A DNA stretch of 7,425 nt from Bacteroidales bacterium (GTDB taxonomy: Bacteria; Bacteroidota; Bacteroidia; Bacteroidales; UBA10428), in NCBI GenBank assembly GCA_016935595.1, contig JAFGQQ010000354.1, positions 1-7,425 on the forward strand, read 5' to 3'. The translations under genes were made by a program, and so were the position numbers. Below the pieces are notes generated by a model. The model searched no databases and was not told the DNA's origin. It saw only the letters and a list, made by a program, of their open reading frames with translations. Below, piece by piece: positions 1 through 7,425 of this stretch. Position 1 is the first letter of the stretch. Each line of letters opens with the position of its first letter.

Positions 1-23
1 ATTATTAAAAAACACACACGACA

Positions 24-1646: not shown

Positions 1647-1700
1647 ATATTACTATTTTTTAAATAATTATTTTGATGTAAAATAAATATTACTATTTTT
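1647..1700. repeat. 14-bp direct repeat overlapping the leader promoter
   Basis: ATATTACTATTTTT is present twice, at 1647-1660 and 1687-1700, exactly 40 bp apart. The second copy forms most of the -7 element of the proposed leader promoter. The first is followed by T instead of G and so lacks the terminal G of TAnnTTTG. It may be a duplicated or decayed promoter, or a pair of regulator sites. Confidence 0.45.
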
Positions 1701-1701
1701 G
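1672..1701 (+). promoter_or_regulatory. Bacteroidota-type promoter for the leader/ilv transcription unit
   Basis: TTTG at 1672-1675 and TATTTTTG at 1694-1701 match the Bacteroidota housekeeping sigma consensus (-33 TTTG/TTG; -7 TAnnTTTG), with an 18-bp spacer. The -7 match is exact. The spacer is slightly short of the Bacteroides optimum but falls in the range described for flavobacteria. Transcription would begin around 1706-1710, leaving a 5' UTR of roughly 15 nt before the leader ATG at 1723. The match was made by eye; a chance TAnnTTTG in AT-rich DNA is possible, but its position just ahead of the leader ORF supports it. Confidence 0.6.
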
Positions 1702-1722: not shown

Positions 1723-1785
1723 ATGAAATTATATACTATTCTTGTTGTGTTAGTTGTGGTTGTTGTAGTTATTATAACACAATGA
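1723..1785 (+). CDS. Branched-chain amino acid leader peptide (attenuator peptide)
   Basis: This 20-codon ORF encodes MKLYTILVVLVVVVVVIITQ and ends at TGA 1783-1785. Codons 6-18 are an unbroken run of Ile/Leu/Val. The whole peptide holds eight Val (five GTT, two GTG, one GTA), three Leu (TTA, CTT, TTA) and three Ile (ATT, ATT, ATA). All three end products of the downstream ilv genes are therefore represented. Directly after the stop lie competing RNA hairpins and a strong intrinsic terminator. The composition resembles the known ilv leader peptides of enterobacteria, such as the valine-rich leader of ilvB. Inferred role: a sensor whose translation speed reports charged tRNA-Val, -Leu and -Ile, with the peptide itself probably dispensable. 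The alternative reading is a tiny single-pass membrane protein, since the sequence is hydrophobic enough to span a membrane. The overlap of segment 2 with the stop codon argues for the leader role. Confidence 0.8.
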   Translation: MKLYTILVVLVVVVVVIITQ

Positions 1786-1829
1786 GAATGGTATAGTATT
1801 ATATTAAGGTATTGCAAAAGCCATTCTCA
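1732..1829 (+). promoter_or_regulatory. Attenuator: alternative protector (1:2) and antiterminator (2:3) RNA pairings
   Basis: Segment 1 (1732-1744, leader codons 4-8) can pair with segment 2 (1783-1795) over 13 contiguous positions, three of them G-U. Segment 2 (TGAGAATGG, 1783-1791, beginning at the leader stop codon) is also perfectly complementary over 9 bp to segment 3 (CCATTCTCA, 1821-1829). Segment 3 is the 5' half of the terminator, so 2:3 and 3:4 exclude each other. Expected logic: a ribosome stalled in the Val/Leu/Ile run (1744-1776) covers segment 1 but leaves 2 free, so 2:3 forms and transcription continues. A ribosome that reaches the stop covers segment 2, so the terminator forms. 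Without translation, 1:2 forms and again frees 3 for the terminator. The pairings are read from the sequence; the mechanism is inferred from the trp/his/ilv paradigm. Confidence 0.78.
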
Positions 1830-1848
1830 AAAAGGGGATGGCTTTTTT
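1816..1848 (+). terminator. Intrinsic terminator of the ilv attenuator
   Basis: AAAAGCCATTCTC (1816-1828) pairs with GGGGATGGCTTTT (1834-1846) in an uninterrupted 13-bp stem, including two G-U pairs, closed by an AAAAA loop (1829-1833). It is followed by TTTTTTAATTT. This is the best Rho-independent terminator in the window. It lies 30 nt beyond the leader stop and 59 nt before the next gene. Since the same-strand unit that would end here is only the 20-codon leader ORF, a regulated leader terminator is the natural explanation. Confidence 0.88.
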
Positions 1849-1853
1849 AATTT

Positions 1854-1885
1854 AATAGATAATAGTAAATATTAAATAGAATATA
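1854..1885. repeat. Left arm of an imperfect inverted repeat flanking the S23-family gene
   Basis: Positions 1874-1885 (AAATAGAATATA) are a perfect 12-bp reverse complement of 2305-2316. Extending outward, 1860-1885 matches the reverse complement of the right arm at 21 of 26 positions, and AATAGA at 1854-1859 pairs with TCTATT at 2335-2340 after a short offset. The S23-family ORF would sit in the loop. Stem-flanked S23 ORFs are typical of intervening sequences in 23S rRNA genes. The low-complexity AT composition raises the chance-match risk. Confidence 0.5.
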
Positions 1886-1907
1886 GTATAATGAAAATAG
1901 TTGTAAA

Positions 1908-2297
1908 ATGAAGGAGAATAGCAAAGATAATTTTAGGGAACAAATGTCTGAAAGACTTATGGAGTTTGCTGTCTGCATAATAAAACTTGAGTCTAAACTT
2001 CGCTATACTTATACTGGCAGGCATATTTATGGACAACTCTTTCGAGCTGGCTCTTCTTCAGGAGCTAATTATGAAGAATCTGTTGCGGCAGAATCAAAAG
2101 CTGATTTCATTCATAAAACACAAGTTGTTTTAAAAGAACTAAGAGAATCACAATATTGGCTAAGATTGATTAAAAAAGCATATTTGCTTTCTGAAGATGG
2201 ATCTGACTTACAATTTCTTTTAAGTGAAAATCTTGAATTGATTAAAATAATTAGTAAATCATTAATCACTGCTAAACAAAATAAAAATGCAAAATAA
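1908..2297 (+). CDS. Four-helix-bundle protein, S23 / 23S rRNA-intervening-sequence family
   Basis: This 129-residue, mostly helical, charged protein contains the family's hallmark region: QLFRAGSSSGANYEES (43-58), then AAESKADFIHKTQVVLKE (60-77), then LRESQYWLRLI (78-88). The family forms a four-helix bundle, known from ORFs inside 23S rRNA intervening sequences and widespread as stand-alone genes in Bacteroidota. Its molecular function is unknown and RNA or nucleic-acid association has only been suggested. Length is normal (about 115-130) and there are no membrane segments. ATG 1908 is preceded by an A-rich tract; M13 is a possible later start. The gene lies 59 nt after the attenuator terminator and 110 nt before ilvD, with no recognisable promoter of its own. 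It would thus be transcribed by read-through with the ilv genes. No link to amino acid synthesis is known, and the flanking inverted repeats suggest it arrived as an insertion. Confidence 0.88.
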   Translation: MKENSKDNFREQMSERLMEFAVCIIKLESKLRYTYTGRHIYGQLFRAGSSSGANYEESVAAESKADFIHKTQVVLKELRESQYWLRLIKKAYLLSEDGSDLQFLLSENLELIKIISKSLITAKQNKNAK

Positions 2298-2304
2298 TAT
2301 TTTT

Positions 2305-2340
2305 TATATTCTATTTTCAATTTGCTATTTTATTTCTATT
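2305..2340. repeat. Right arm of an imperfect inverted repeat flanking the S23-family gene
   Basis: TATATTCTATTT at 2305-2316 is the perfect complement of 1874-1885, and the similarity continues to 2340 with mismatches and a 3-4 nt length difference. The arm starts 8 bp after the S23-family stop codon. The remaining 2341-2407 is plain AT-rich sequence in which no promoter or terminator was recognised. Confidence 0.5.
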
Positions 2341-2407
2341 GATAATATAAGAAAAAATAAACTTAATTATCACTTAAAAAAATACAACTTATTTAGATAA
2401 ATAAAAT

Positions 2408-4240
2408 ATGAGAAATCAACTTAGAAGTCATACAACAACACAAGGACGCAGAATGGCCGGTGCCAGGAGTCTTTGGAGAGCCAACGGAATGAAAGAAGAA
2501 CATTTTGGCAAACCCGTAATTGCTATTGTAAACTCTTTTACACAATTTGTACCTGGTCATGTTCATTTACATTCGATTGGTCAACACATTAAAAAAAGTA
2601 TTGAAGATCATGGCTGGTTTGCTGCCGAATTTAATACCATAGCTATTGATGACGGTATTGCAATGGGACATGATGGAATGTTATACTCCCTTCCATCCAG
2701 GGATATTATAGCTGATAGTGTTGAATACATGTGCAATGCACATATGGTTGATGCCATGATATGTATAAGCAATTGTGATAAAATTACACCGGGAATGTTA
2801 ATGGCAGCTATGAGGTTGAATATTCCTTCGGTTTTTATTTCGGGAGGGCCTATGGAAGCAGGATTAGTAGGCGATAAACATTTTGATTTGATAGATGCCA
2901 TGGTTATGGCAGGTGATCCTAATGTTCCTGATGAATATTTAGAACAGGTCGAAAAATCGGCATGTCCGACTTGCGGATCGTGTTCAGGTATGTTCACTGC
3001 CAATTCGATGAATTGTCTGAATGAAGCAATTGGAATGGCTTTACCGGGAAATGGAACTATTGTGGCAACCCATATTAACAGAAGAAAATTATTCAATAAA
3101 GCAGCCAAAACAATAATAGATATCACAGATAAATATTATTACCAGGGAGATGATTCGATTCTTCCGCGTTCAATCGCAACTAAAGCGGCTTTTATGAATG
3201 CTATGTCATTAGACATTGCTATGGGAGGATCAACAAATACGGTTTTGCATTTATTGGCTGTTGCTCATGAAGCTGAGGTTGATTTTACCATGAAAGATAT
3301 TGATGAACTTTCGCGGTGTATTCCTGTTCTTTGTAAAGTTGCACCAAGCTCATCCTATCATGTTCAGGATGTAAACAAGGCAGGAGGAATATTATCAATT
3401 ATGGGAGAATTAAATACAGCTAAACTTCTTGATACTACTGTTGGCCGTATTGATAGTAATTCATTAGCTGATACTTTAGATAAGTATGATATTTTAAGTC
3501 CAAATGTTTGTGACGAGGCTTTAGACAATTTCAGGAGTGCTCCGGGTATTTTACCAAGAAACCTGGAACTGGGCTCACAAGATAATAAATATCGTGAATT
3601 GGATATTGATCGTGAAAAAGGTTGTATCAGAAACGTTGAACATTGCTATAGTCCTGACGGAGGTTTAGCTGTATTATTCGGAAATCTGGCGTTTAACGGA
3701 TGTATAATAAAAACTGCCGGTGTTGATGAATCGGTTTTCAAATTTAAAGGAAAAGCAAAAGTTTACGAATCGCAAGATACAGCTTGTGACGGAATTTTAA
3801 ATGATGAAGTTAAAAGAGGTGATGTAGTGGTTATTCGTTATGAGGGGCCAAAGGGAGGCCCGGGAATGCAGGAAATGCTTTACCCTACTTCATATATTAA
3901 ATCGAAGAAATTAGACAAGGTTTGTGCTTTAATTACTGATGGACGCTTTTCAGGAGGAACATCAGGTCTTTCAATTGGTCATATTTCACCTGAAGCAGCT
4001 GCTGGCGGTGCAATTGCTATTATAAAAGACGGCGACGAAATTGAAATAAATATACCGGAAAGGAAAATTAATTTAAAAATCCCTGAAAAAGAGTTGGAAG
4101 AACGGATGAAGCAAGAAAAATTAAAAGGAGATAACGCGTTTAAGCCACAGGGCCGTGACCGGAAGATTTCCGCAGCTCTCAAGGCTTACGCGAGCTTAGT
4201 CACTTCAGCCGACAAGGGAGCAGTAAGAATGATAAAATAA
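2408..4240 (+). CDS. ilvD: Dihydroxyacid dehydratase
   Basis: This enzyme dehydrates 2,3-dihydroxy-isovalerate and 2,3-dihydroxy-3-methylvalerate to the 2-keto acids, the third common step of Val/Ile synthesis (EC 4.2.1.9), in the cytoplasm. At 610 residues it matches the usual length. The first family signature [11 protein letters not shown] places cluster cysteine C123 with D124 and K125 (the lysine carbamylated in the family). A second cysteine cluster is [11 protein letters not shown] (C186, C189, C192). D81/D82 lie in [21 protein letters not shown]. The C-terminal signature is [11 protein letters not shown] (about 479-489) and [18 protein letters not shown] (about 509-526). At the position where plant-type [2Fe-2S] enzymes carry a further cysteine, this protein reads [12 protein letters not shown], as in E. 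coli IlvD, so an oxygen-sensitive [4Fe-4S] type is inferred. It is the first ilv gene of the cluster, with a 52-nt gap to ilvB. Its last ~80 coding bases (4141-4220) are unusually GC-rich. Confidence 0.97.
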
Positions 4241-4292: not shown

Positions 4293-6023
4293 ATGAGTAA
4301 AATTAATAATATAAAGGAAGCTAAGAACATAACCGGATCTGAGGCTATAGTACTTTCTCTTTTAAATGAAGGTGTTGATTTAATGTTCGGTTACCCGGGT
4401 GGGGCAATTATGCCTGCATATGATGCATTGTATCAATACCAGGATAAGATTAAACACATTTTAACCCGGCATGAACAGGGGGCTATGCATGCAGCCCAGG
4501 CCTATGCCCGTATTTCAGGAAGAACAGGTGTTGTTTTTGCTACATCTGGACCTGGTGCTACAAATTTAATAACCGGTATTGCTGATGCAATGATTGATTC
4601 AACGCCTATAGTTTGCATAACAGGGCAAGTTACCAGTCCTTTATTAGGAAGCGATGCATTCCAGGAAACCGATGTGGTTGGAATTTCAATGCCTGTAACC
4701 AAATGGAATTTTCAAATTACAAAACCTGAAGAAATTCCGGGAGCTATTGCAATGGCATTTTATATAGCCAGTAGTGGCAGGCCAGGTCCTGTTTTATTAG
4801 ATATTACAAAGGATGCCCAATTTGGCAGGTTAGATTTTAAATATGAAAAATGTACAAATATAAGAGGTTATATACCTGAACCTAAAATAGACGAGGCAAA
4901 GATTGATGAAGCTGCCAAATTAATAAACCATGCAAAGAAACCTTATGTTCTCTTCGGACAAGGAGTAATTCTTGCTAAAGCCGAAGAAGAATTCAAGGAA
5001 TTTATTGAAAAGGCAGGTATACCGGCAGCATGGACAATTCTGGGCTTATCGGCGCTTCCATCCGATCATCCGTTGAATGTGGGCATGCTTGGAATGCATG
5101 GTAACTATGGGCCTAATATTAAAAATAACGAATGTGATTTATTAATTGCAGTTGGTATGCGTTTTGACGACAGGGTAACCGGAAATTTGAATGTATTTGC
5201 CAAACAGGCAAAAGTAATACATATGGATATCGATCCTTCTGAAATTAATAAAAATGTACAGACTGATGTGCCTATTCTTGGTAATTTAAAAAAAACATTA
5301 CCATTATTGACGTCTAAAATAAAAGAAAATTCTCATCAGCAATGGATAGAAGAATTTAGAAAATGCGATGAAATTGAATATAACAGGGTCATTAATAAAG
5401 CTACTCATCCAACCGAAGGAGGTATATTAATGGGCGAGGTAATAAGAATAGTATCAGAAGCAGTTAATGGAGAAGCAATTATGATAACTGATGTTGGTCA
5501 GCACCAGATGATGGCAACCAGGTATTTTAAATTTAAACATTCGAGAAGTGTGGTAACCTCAGGTGGTTTAGGTACTATGGGTTTTGGATTACCAGCTTCA
5601 GTTGGTGCCAAAATAGCTGCACCCGATCGCACAGTTGTTGCATTTATTGGAGATGGAGGATTTCAGATGACCATACAAGAGCTTGGTACTATATTACAAT
5701 CTGATGTTAGAGTTAAGATTGTATTGCTTAATAATAGTTATTTAGGAATGGTTCGCCAATGGCAGGAAATGTTTTTTGATAAACGTTATGCTCAAACTAC
5801 CTTGATAAATCCCGATTTTATTACAATTGCAAAAGGCTATGGGATAAAAGGCCGTAGGATTACTGATAGAAAAGACCTGGATGAAGCCATACATGAAATG
5901 CTTGGACATGACGGGGCATTTTTACTTGAAGTTGCAGTAGAGAAAGAAGGGAATGTATTCCCAATGGTTCCTGCAGGAGCTTCAGTTTCAGATATATTAT
6001 TGGGAGATGAGCAAAATAAATAA
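4293..6023 (+). CDS. ilvB: Acetolactate synthase, large (catalytic) subunit
   Basis: This ThDP-, Mg2+- and FAD-dependent enzyme condenses pyruvate with pyruvate (to acetolactate) or 2-ketobutyrate (to acetohydroxybutyrate), the committed step of Val/Leu/Ile synthesis (EC 2.2.1.6). The 576 residues show the three-domain plan. The N-terminal ThDP pyrimidine domain (about 14-180) has GYPGGAIMPAYDAL and the activating glutamate E61 in RHEQGAMHAA. The central FAD-associated domain (about 200-335) has the GMRFDDRVTGN motif. The C-terminal pyrophosphate domain (about 390-545) has the ThDP/Mg motif GDG (453-455) ... NN (480-481), then SYLGMVRQWQEMFF. FATSGPGATNLITGIADA is also classic for the family. 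This is an anabolic, not catabolic, synthase because a regulatory subunit gene follows 34 nt downstream. The start ATG follows AATAAGAAA and no Shine-Dalgarno is seen. All expected catalytic residues are present. Confidence 0.97.
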   Translation: MSKINNIKEAKNITGSEAIVLSLLNEGVDLMFGYPGGAIMPAYDALYQYQDKIKHILTRHEQGAMHAAQAYARISGRTGVVFATSGPGATNLITGIADAMIDSTPIVCITGQVTSPLLGSDAFQETDVVGISMPVTKWNFQITKPEEIPGAIAMAFYIASSGRPGPVLLDITKDAQFGRLDFKYEKCTNIRGYIPEPKIDEAKIDEAAKLINHAKKPYVLFGQGVILAKAEEEFKEFIEKAGIPAAWTILGLSALPSDHPLNVGMLGMHGNYGPNIKNNECDLLIAVGMRFDDRVTGNLNVFAKQAKVIHMDIDPSEINKNVQTDVPILGNLKKTLPLLTSKIKENSHQQWIEEFRKCDEIEYNRVINKATHPTEGGILMGEVIRIVSEAVNGEAIMITDVGQHQMMATRYFKFKHSRSVVTSGGLGTMGFGLPASVGAKIAAPDRTVVAFIGDGGFQMTIQELGTILQSDVRVKIVLLNNSYLGMVRQWQEMFFDKRYAQTTLINPDFITIAKGYGIKGRRITDRKDLDEAIHEMLGHDGAFLLEVAVEKEGNVFPMVPAGASVSDILLGDEQNK

Positions 6024-6057: not shown

Positions 6058-6591
6058 ATGACAGAAGAATTTACCATATCAGCGTTTTCCGAAAATCATA
6101 TAGGTTTACTGAACCGGATTACCATCATATTTACACGGAGGCATATAAATATTGAAAGTTTAACTGTTTCTGCGTCTGCAATAGATGGTATTCATAAGTT
6201 TACCATTGTGGTCGATACTACAGAGGAACAAGTAAAAAAAGTTGTAAAGCAAATAGAGAAACATGTTGAGGTTCTAAGGGCTTTTTATTATAGGAATGAT
6301 GAAATTGTTTTTCAGGAAATAGCAATGTATAAAGTGCCAACAGAAGCTTTAACACAAAGTGATGAAATTGAAGGCATTATCAGAAGACATTATGCCCGGA
6401 TACTTGAGGTAACACCTACTTTTACTGTAATTGAAAAAACAGGTCATAAAAACGAGACACAGCAACTTTTTGAAGAATTGAAGCAATTTAAAGTGCTTCA
6501 ATTTACACGTTCAGGCCGGATTTCAATTACGAGAGCTAATATTGAAAGATTATCCGATTATTTAGAAAAAATAAATTTTGTAATTAAATAA
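6058..6591 (+). CDS. ilvN: Acetolactate synthase, small (regulatory) subunit
   Basis: This subunit activates IlvB and confers feedback inhibition by valine. The chosen ATG at 6058 gives 177 residues (MTEEFTISAF...), following an A-rich tract. An in-frame TTG at 6028 would add ten lysine-rich residues that are not typical of the family. Residues 4-80 form an ACT domain: SENHIGLLNRITIIFTRRHI, then NIESLTV. N13, G16 and N31 align with N11, G14 and N29 of E. coli IlvH, positions tied to valine binding, so valine sensitivity is likely. Residues about 95-170 are the C-terminal ALS_ss_C domain (REIxxxKV-like EIAMYKVP, ILEVTPTFTVIEKTG, FTRSGRISITR). The length resembles IlvH/IlvN enzymes of ~160-190 residues. 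It lies 34 nt after ilvB and 16 nt before ilvC, so co-translation and stoichiometric assembly are expected. The symbol could equally be ilvH. Confidence 0.95.
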   Translation: MTEEFTISAFSENHIGLLNRITIIFTRRHINIESLTVSASAIDGIHKFTIVVDTTEEQVKKVVKQIEKHVEVLRAFYYRNDEIVFQEIAMYKVPTEALTQSDEIEGIIRRHYARILEVTPTFTVIEKTGHKNETQQLFEELKQFKVLQFTRSGRISITRANIERLSDYLEKINFVIK

Positions 6592-6607: not shown

Positions 6608-7425
6608 ATGGCAAAAATTAATTTTGGCGGAGTTGAAGAAACAGTTATAACCCGCGAAGAATTTTCAATTAATAAGGCATTAGAAGTTCTTAAAGATGAA
6701 ACCATAGCTGTAATTGGTTATGGTGTTCAAGGTCCAGCTCAGGCATTAAATATGAAAGACAATGGTTTTAAAGTTATTATAGGTCAGGCACCTGAATTTA
6801 AAAGCGATTGGGATAGGGCAGTTGCTGATGGCTGGGTTCCCGGCGAAACATTATTTCCGATTGAAGAAGCTGCTGAAAAAGGAACAATTATTCAGTATTT
6901 GGTTTCAGATGCAGCTCAAAGAGCAATCTGGCCTAAGTTAAAACCGCATTTGAAAGAGGGTAATGCACTATATTTTTCGCATGGTTTTTCTATTACCTAT
7001 AATGAACAGACAGGGGTAATTCCTCCTGAGAATATTGATGTTATATTAGTTGCCCCAAAAGGTTCTGGTACTAGCGTTCGCAGAAATTTCCTGGCAGGAG
7101 CAGGGATTAATTCGAGTTATGCAGTTCATCAGGATTTTACCGGAAAGGCAGAAGAAAGAACTATTGCTATTGGTATTGCAATAGGATCGGGATATTTATT
7201 CCCAACTACTTTCGAGAATGAAGTTTATAGCGACTTAACAGGTGAAAGAGGAGTTTTGATGGGAGCCCTGGCAGGAATTATGGATGCACAATATGAAGTA
7301 TTGCGTGCAAATGGACATAGTCCGAGTGAAGCATTCAACGAAACAGTTGAGGAACTCACGCAAAGTCTGATCAGACTGGTCGATGAAAACGGCATGGACT
7401 GGATGTATGCCAATTGCAGTGCAAC
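6608..7425 (+). CDS. ilvC: Ketol-acid reductoisomerase (partial, C-terminus beyond window)
   Basis: This enzyme isomerises and reduces acetolactate and acetohydroxybutyrate to the dihydroxy acids used by IlvD (EC 1.1.1.86). The window holds 272 codons with no stop. The Rossmann motif is AVIGYGVQGPAQALN (34-48; the more usual form is GYGSQGHAQ). Catalytic and metal residues are visible: H125 (FSHGF), K151 (APKGSG), D209 and E213 (SDLTGERG), and E245 and E249 (NETVEE). The sequence is of the fungal Ilv5/Bacteroides kind (for example VILVAPKGSG, GINSSYAV, SDLTGERG, NGHSPSEAFNETVEE), not the plain short bacterial kind. Roughly 75 residues are probably missing if it is about 347 long, as in Bacteroides. 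The cofactor loop after beta-2 reads GQAPEFKSDW (59-68) and lacks the arginine I recall at this place in NADPH-using yeast Ilv5. ATG 6608 begins 16 nt after the ilvN stop. No acyl-ACP thioesterase gene lies between ilvN and ilvC, as I recall in Bacteroides. Confidence 0.95.
   Translation, partial: MAKINFGGVEETVITREEFSINKALEVLKDETIAVIGYGVQGPAQALNMKDNGFKVIIGQAPEFKSDWDRAVADGWVPGETLFPIEEAAEKGTIIQYLVSDAAQRAIWPKLKPHLKEGNALYFSHGFSITYNEQTGVIPPENIDVILVAPKGSGTSVRRNFLAGAGINSSYAVHQDFTGKAEERTIAIGIAIGSGYLFPTTFENEVYSDLTGERGVLMGALAGIMDAQYEVLRANGHSPSEAFNETVEELTQSLIRLVDENGMDWMYANCSA

Follow-up and report, generated by a model that had tools for sequence, protein, structure and literature searches.

What controls the ilvD-ilvB-ilvN-ilvC operon at this locus, and what is an unrelated gene doing between the operon and its leader? 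Along the window, by which we mean the whole stretch of 7,425 nucleotides analysed here, the order runs from a gene at 80-400 and one at 452-1552 on the reverse strand, through an AT-rich spacer, to a short leader ORF, a set of RNA hairpins, the intervening gene and lastly the cognate biosynthetic operon (Table 1). The closest relatives of the window's IlvD belong to Bacteroidota, at 71-75% identity. We consider it very probable that the operon is under the control of an ilv-type attenuator, in which a ribosome on the leader decides the fate of the transcript; termination, translation of the leader and starvation-dependent read-through are steps that we infer from the sequence. At the other end of the spacer, and divergent from the ilv operon, 452-1552 encodes a hybrid protein in which a receiver domain comes first and a histidine kinase follows, and 80-400 on the forward strand encodes a small hydrophobic, membrane-type protein whose match to DUF6677 falls below threshold.

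Table 1. Features of the window, in order of position, with the basis of each assignment.
Feature	Position	Strand	Basis
TTTG, likely upstream (-33-type) Bacteroidota promoter element, -51 from leader ATG	1672-1675	+	motif
TATTTTTG, matching TANNTTTG, -29 from leader ATG	1694-1701	+	motif, start site predicted
Leader peptide ORF MKLYTILVVLVVVVVVIITQ, stop TGA at 1783-1785	1723-1785	+	ORF translation
Segment 1, pairs with 1775-1795	1732-1752	+	pairing check, folding
Segment 2; core 1783-1792, opening on the stop codon, is the partner of segment 3	1775-1795	+	pairing check, folding
Segment 3: 1820-1829 with 1783-1792; 1816-1828 with 1834-1846	1816-1829	+	pairing check
Segment 4, 3' arm of the terminator hairpin	1834-1846	+	pairing check
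T-run of the predicted intrinsic terminator (UUUUUU)	1843-1848	+	sequence
Apparent inverted repeats around the IVP-type gene, approximate extent; 12-bp perfect core 1874-1885 / 2305-2316	1852-2342	+	flank duplex
Four helix bundle protein, 129 aa, 23S rRNA-intervening sequence protein family (PF05635 / TIGR02436)	1908-2297	+	profile match
ilvD, dihydroxy-acid dehydratase	2408-4240	+	sequence annotation
ilvB-type acetolactate synthase large subunit	4293-6023	+	sequence annotation
Acetolactate synthase small subunit (ilvN/ilvH type)	6058-6591	+	sequence annotation
ilvC, ketol-acid reductoisomerase, continues past window end	6608-7425	+	sequence annotation

The leader peptide is short and strongly biased, with 14 of its 20 residues being Val, Leu or Ile (8 V, 3 L, 3 I). 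Upstream of it lie a TTTG and a TANNTTTG motif, which we take to be the -33-type and -7-type elements of a Bacteroidota promoter. The promoter at TATTTTTG is predicted to be used, with the transcript starting shortly downstream. The same motif recurs within 110 nt upstream of the leader in 100 of the 119 loci counted among the relatives and window described below (14 expected from shuffles; one of 120 leaders was dropped as too short).

An earlier note on this DNA had proposed a complete four-segment attenuator with mutually exclusive hairpins, and its three helices can all be found where it had placed them. In the 1:2 helix, all 13 positions of 1732-1744 pair with 1783-1795, three of them as G-U; the helix is longer than that note stated, extending to 21 contiguous pairs (1732-1752 with 1775-1795), and the isolated piece 1730-1797 folds at -24.6 kcal/mol. 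Pairing of 1783-1791 with 1821-1829 gives the nine Watson-Crick pairs of 2:3, to which a tenth is added as G-U 1792/1820, with the piece 1783-1830 at -16.0 kcal/mol. The 3:4 helix consists of 13 pairs, two of them G-U, between 1816-1828 and 1834-1846, together with the T-run, and in isolation reaches -17.0 kcal/mol. Segment 2, taken as the core that pairs with segment 3, begins on the leader stop codon, because the TGA sits at 1783-1785. None of 100 dinucleotide shuffles equalled the 2:3 complementarity of the window, and none of 100 codon permutations of the leader equalled its 1:2 duplex. The four segments, the run of branched-chain codons, the terminator with its T-run, the masking at the stop codon and the cognate operon are all borne out in the sequence or in the folds.

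How would such a device work? RNA polymerase would start just after 1701 and transcribe the leader. With charged Val/Leu/Ile tRNAs plentiful, the leading ribosome would reach the stop codon and cover segment 2, whereupon 3:4 would pair and transcription would end at about 1848. Were these charged tRNAs scarce, the ribosome would halt in the Val/Leu/Ile run and cover segment 1, segment 2 would be left free, 2:3 would be made ahead of segment 4 and the polymerase would read on. With no ribosome present, 1:2 would form and 3:4 would terminate.

Folds of 1707-1830 or 1707-1850, with the parts covered by a ribosome masked, bear on this logic. The unmasked RNA, which stands for the absence of a ribosome, adopts 1:2 with 21 pairs plus 3:4 with 13 pairs, and a ribosome at the stop codon (1770-1797 masked) leaves 3:4 to form. 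If the RNA ends at 1830, a stall at the Val codons (1732-1759 or 1747-1774 masked) yields all 10 pairs of 2:3, and a stall at an early Leu codon yields 2:3 too. Once the RNA is extended to 1850, however, 3:4 replaces 2:3 in the Val-codon stall, and in the full-length window RNA 3:4 wins in all five masking conditions. The folds follow the classic logic that the earlier note had read into the geometry, with 2:3 forming in the stalled case while segment 4 is still unmade, but at full length 2:3 never beats 3:4. Since 3:4 wins in every full-length condition, read-through would have to be kinetic, with 2:3 made before segment 4 emerges; in classic attenuators the antiterminator is assumed to form first and hold. 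An equilibrium winner of this kind also suits a constitutive terminator, in which the short ORF would be incidental and the operon driven from elsewhere. We regard this as very improbable, given that many loci have before ilvD an ORF rich in branched-chain codons together with the option of 2:3 pairing, and that in the window a search for the sequence motif alone finds no TANNTTTG from the terminator up to ilvD.

The recurrence emerges from a sample of 197 ilvD upstream regions: the window, 80 IlvD loci of named records, and 116 from the order of genome G010. The last came from a search of 295 genomes (126 with a match), leaving out places that were edge-cut, partial, remote or already included; the two sets may share genomes, as the upstream hairpin is identical in loci L064 and L181. 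Our detector scored a region as positive if it had an ORF of 9-45 residues in which I, L or V filled at least 6 of 9 positions, and if a hairpin and T-run came after that ORF. Leader and terminator were found in 120 of the 197 regions, that is, in 39 of the 80 named loci, 80 of the 116 from the order of G010, and the window. All 39 positives of the named set are titled Bacteroidota, and among the same 80 the loci titled Desulfobulbaceae, Spirochaetes or Proteobacteria are detector-negative. Within the last 300 nt before ilvD, 112 of 196 regions were positive on the forward strand (one of the 197 being too short), as against 3 on the reverse strand and none after dinucleotide shuffling, with one shuffle each; over 1000 nt the figures were 120 forward versus 4 reverse. 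The Val/Leu/Ile share is 57% in the leader frame, compared with 24% and 7% in the alternative frames, a difference that arises partly by selection, and 89 of 115 leaders contain each of I, L and V two or more times.

Detector-negative regions number 77 of the 197, including 36 of the 116 from the order of G010. At least four of them (L105, L129, L131 and L146) carry leader- and terminator-like sequence by eye, and others, such as L095, show no leader- or terminator-like sequence by eye; some positives are doubtful, L164 having its leader 421 nt from ilvD and no 2:3 pairing.

Two side observations concern the layout of these regions. Two serial leader peptides precede ilvD in L018 (4646-4939), L024 (4647-4938) and L029 (about 4560-4895), of Labilibaculum, Marinifilaceae and Marinifilum, each with its own hairpin and T-run, as apparent tandem attenuators. 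In L056 and L059, G/C-rich palindromic repeats occupy the spacer after the terminator and extend into the start of the ilvD match.

Are the pairings kept as well as the parts? After five of the 120 positives, whose leader peptides were identical to another, had been dropped, 115 different leaders remained for the pairing tests, and in 98 of these at most 5 of 100 shuffles were as good as the observed 2:3 complementarity. Segment 3 contains CCTTTCTC in 55 of the 115 and lacks it in 60, the window having CCATTCTC. At the 60 non-consensus loci, a locus's own segment 3 beats the consensus segment 3 as a partner for its own segment 2 in 54 cases, and beats the other variants in 58. The mean own 2:3 score was 22.2 versus 16.75 for permuted partners (sd 0.29; maximum of 5000 permutations 17.97; n = 115), a test that overstates independence because the loci are related. 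Own partners thus outscore swapped ones, and the compensatory changes keeping 2:3 in homologous leaders, to which the earlier note had pointed as a check, are present among these related loci. The corresponding co-variation in 3:4 is circular, because the hairpins were selected by pairing. In 88 of 115, no more than 6 nt separate the start of segment 2 from the end of the leader stop codon. Where 2:3 is good (98 loci), the folds of 2..3 and 3:4 are balanced, with a median difference of -0.1 kcal/mol and 3:4 more stable in 47. Only 46 of 115 leaders have a 1:2 duplex that is equalled by no more than 5 of 100 codon permutations, with about 6 expected and a median z of -1.3; the protector helix is not general among the relatives, though it is present in the window. 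A MAFFT alignment of 22 chosen loci puts segment 2 of the window in the wrong place; it served for display, and no count draws on it.

The position of the hairpins raises another reading, in which they act mainly on downstream translation or mRNA stability and not on termination. Indeed, the hairpin of the 120 positives ends at a median of 32.5 nt before ilvD, near the start codon. Yet a T-run follows the 3:4 stem, in the relatives by definition of the detector, and in the window the next gene, of the IVP type, lies 59 nt and ilvD 560 nt past the end of the terminator, so that we hold this reading to be very unlikely. A metabolite-binding riboswitch or a tRNA-binding T-box would occupy the same genomic position and have the same output, a terminator before an amino acid operon. 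Rfam, however, gave no matches up to E = 1 on both strands of the 7425 bases for 4227 families, T-box, riboswitches and amino acid leaders included, and the conserved parts are an ORF and three complementary segments; we rejected this candidate on the Rfam result and consider it extremely improbable here.

How new is an attenuator of the ilv type in this setting? The enterobacterial ilvGMEDA and ilvBN operons are governed by ribosome-mediated attenuators, and the window shares with them a branched-chain leader peptide, the 1:2, 2:3 and 3:4 pairings, an intrinsic terminator and ilv genes downstream; it differs in its Bacteroidota-type promoter motif, in having ilvD first, in its RNA sequence, and in that its control is predicted. 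Closer to home, the comparative survey of Vitreschak et al. in 2004 reportedly predicted candidate attenuators in Bacteroidetes/Chlorobi, a likeness that consists in the same mechanism being predicted in the same phylum. In Flavobacterium psychrophilum, a member of the phylum, the available part of one study describes strong clues that amino acid biosynthesis operons are preceded by attenuators of this kind, with a leader peptide and premature termination, although, unlike what we see in the window, that part of the text names no ilv gene or segment anatomy (PMC9723704). Excerpts of other work mention, for Bacteroides thetaiotaomicron, short ORFs that resemble leader peptides (PMC7366714) and state that leader peptides were, in 2010, known only in Proteobacteria and Actinobacteria, to which Firmicutes were then added (PMC2965389). 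The Corynebacterium ilvBNC attenuator, as portrayed in the parts available, resembles the window in placing a BCAA uORF and a terminator/antiterminator before an ilv operon, but belongs to Actinobacteria and precedes ilvBNC, whereas the window is from Bacteroidota with ilvD first (PMC10272879, PMC11857589). Judged by title or the start of the abstract, no paper that we found describes a Bacteroidota ilvD leader. As attenuation has already been hinted at or predicted in the phylum, the probable attenuator of the window is a further case of a known mechanism, and the less explained part of the locus is the IVP element.

The intervening gene does not figure in the earlier note's account of the attenuator. 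The protein that it encodes matches its family at 44.7 bits for PF05635 (cut-off 33.8) and 73.1 for TIGR02436 (cut-off 24). After the window, the largest distance from terminator to ilvD among the positives is 361 nt, in the doubtful L164; taking out 1852-2342 would bring the window terminator to about 70 nt from ilvD, a distance that falls among those of the relatives. Plain tblastn with the window's IVP missed known family matches and was too insensitive, so absence was rechecked by profile: no IVP-type ORF was found in the other 196 ilvD upstream regions (8 of them shorter than 500 nt), with a sensitivity such that seven ORFs were found in L081-L087, and L084 and L088 were missed. Relatives carry several copies of the family (11 of 12 genomes, with 21 matches in G010). 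Close relatives of the window's IVP are patchy, occurring in 39 of 295 genomes at E <= 1e-20, and are absent from G018, whose IlvD is the most similar to that of the window.

The flanks of the gene can pair as a duplex of -25.0 kcal/mol, compared with -14.6 (sd 3.1) for shuffles, 3 of 500 being as good; the 12-bp perfect core was equalled in 13 of 500 shuffles, and the fold of the whole region 1849-2407 is unexceptional (z -1.44, 9 of 100 as good). Inverted-repeat flanks were seen at 20 of 32 other IVP genes versus 3 of 63 neighbouring ORFs, counts to which simple AT-rich repeats contribute, and at 16 of 28 in an earlier, overlapping sample. The nearest copy found, L205, with 73% amino acid identity over the match, has sugar-nucleotide genes on both sides. 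Its left flank resembles the left flank of the window (1 of 300 shuffles as good), as does the complement of its right flank (0 of 300), and its right flank compared with the window's right flank shows no excess likeness (25 of 300). Insertion by target-site duplication was considered and set aside, as the longest direct repeat between the flanks is 7 bases and no duplication was seen.

What could this element be? 23S rRNA intervening sequences can hold an IVP-coding ORF within complementary ends, and they sit in the 23S rRNA gene, whereas 1852-2342 is not inside a 23S rRNA gene and lies between attenuator and ilvD, in the mRNA leader of a metabolic operon. That the gene appears to be enclosed by inverted repeats, as many other IVP genes are, suggests an intervening-sequence-like element; from its place downstream of the terminator, its transcription is expected to depend on read-through, barring a promoter of its own. 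We tentatively offer, as a possibility we would rate well below even, that 1852-2342 is a mobile intervening-sequence-like element that has entered an mRNA leader between attenuator and ilvD, with transcription dependent on branched-chain starvation, and closed by a long imperfect stem that an RNase III-type enzyme could cut.

Were this true, cleavage of the stem would split the mRNA as it does the rRNA at intervening sequences, and IVP elements in mRNAs and spacers of Bacteroidota would form a class of RNA-closed elements that is dispersed and has gone unrecognised. The extra gene of the window raises a testable question: what role does an IVP-type gene with inverted-repeat ends play outside rRNA? 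As for the attenuator, classic attenuation needs tight coupling of translation to transcription, and the conserved ilvD leader would offer a simple way to test that coupling in Bacteroidota; in gut and environmental species alike, the leaders also suit tests of whether translation is efficient where no Shine-Dalgarno sequence is evident.
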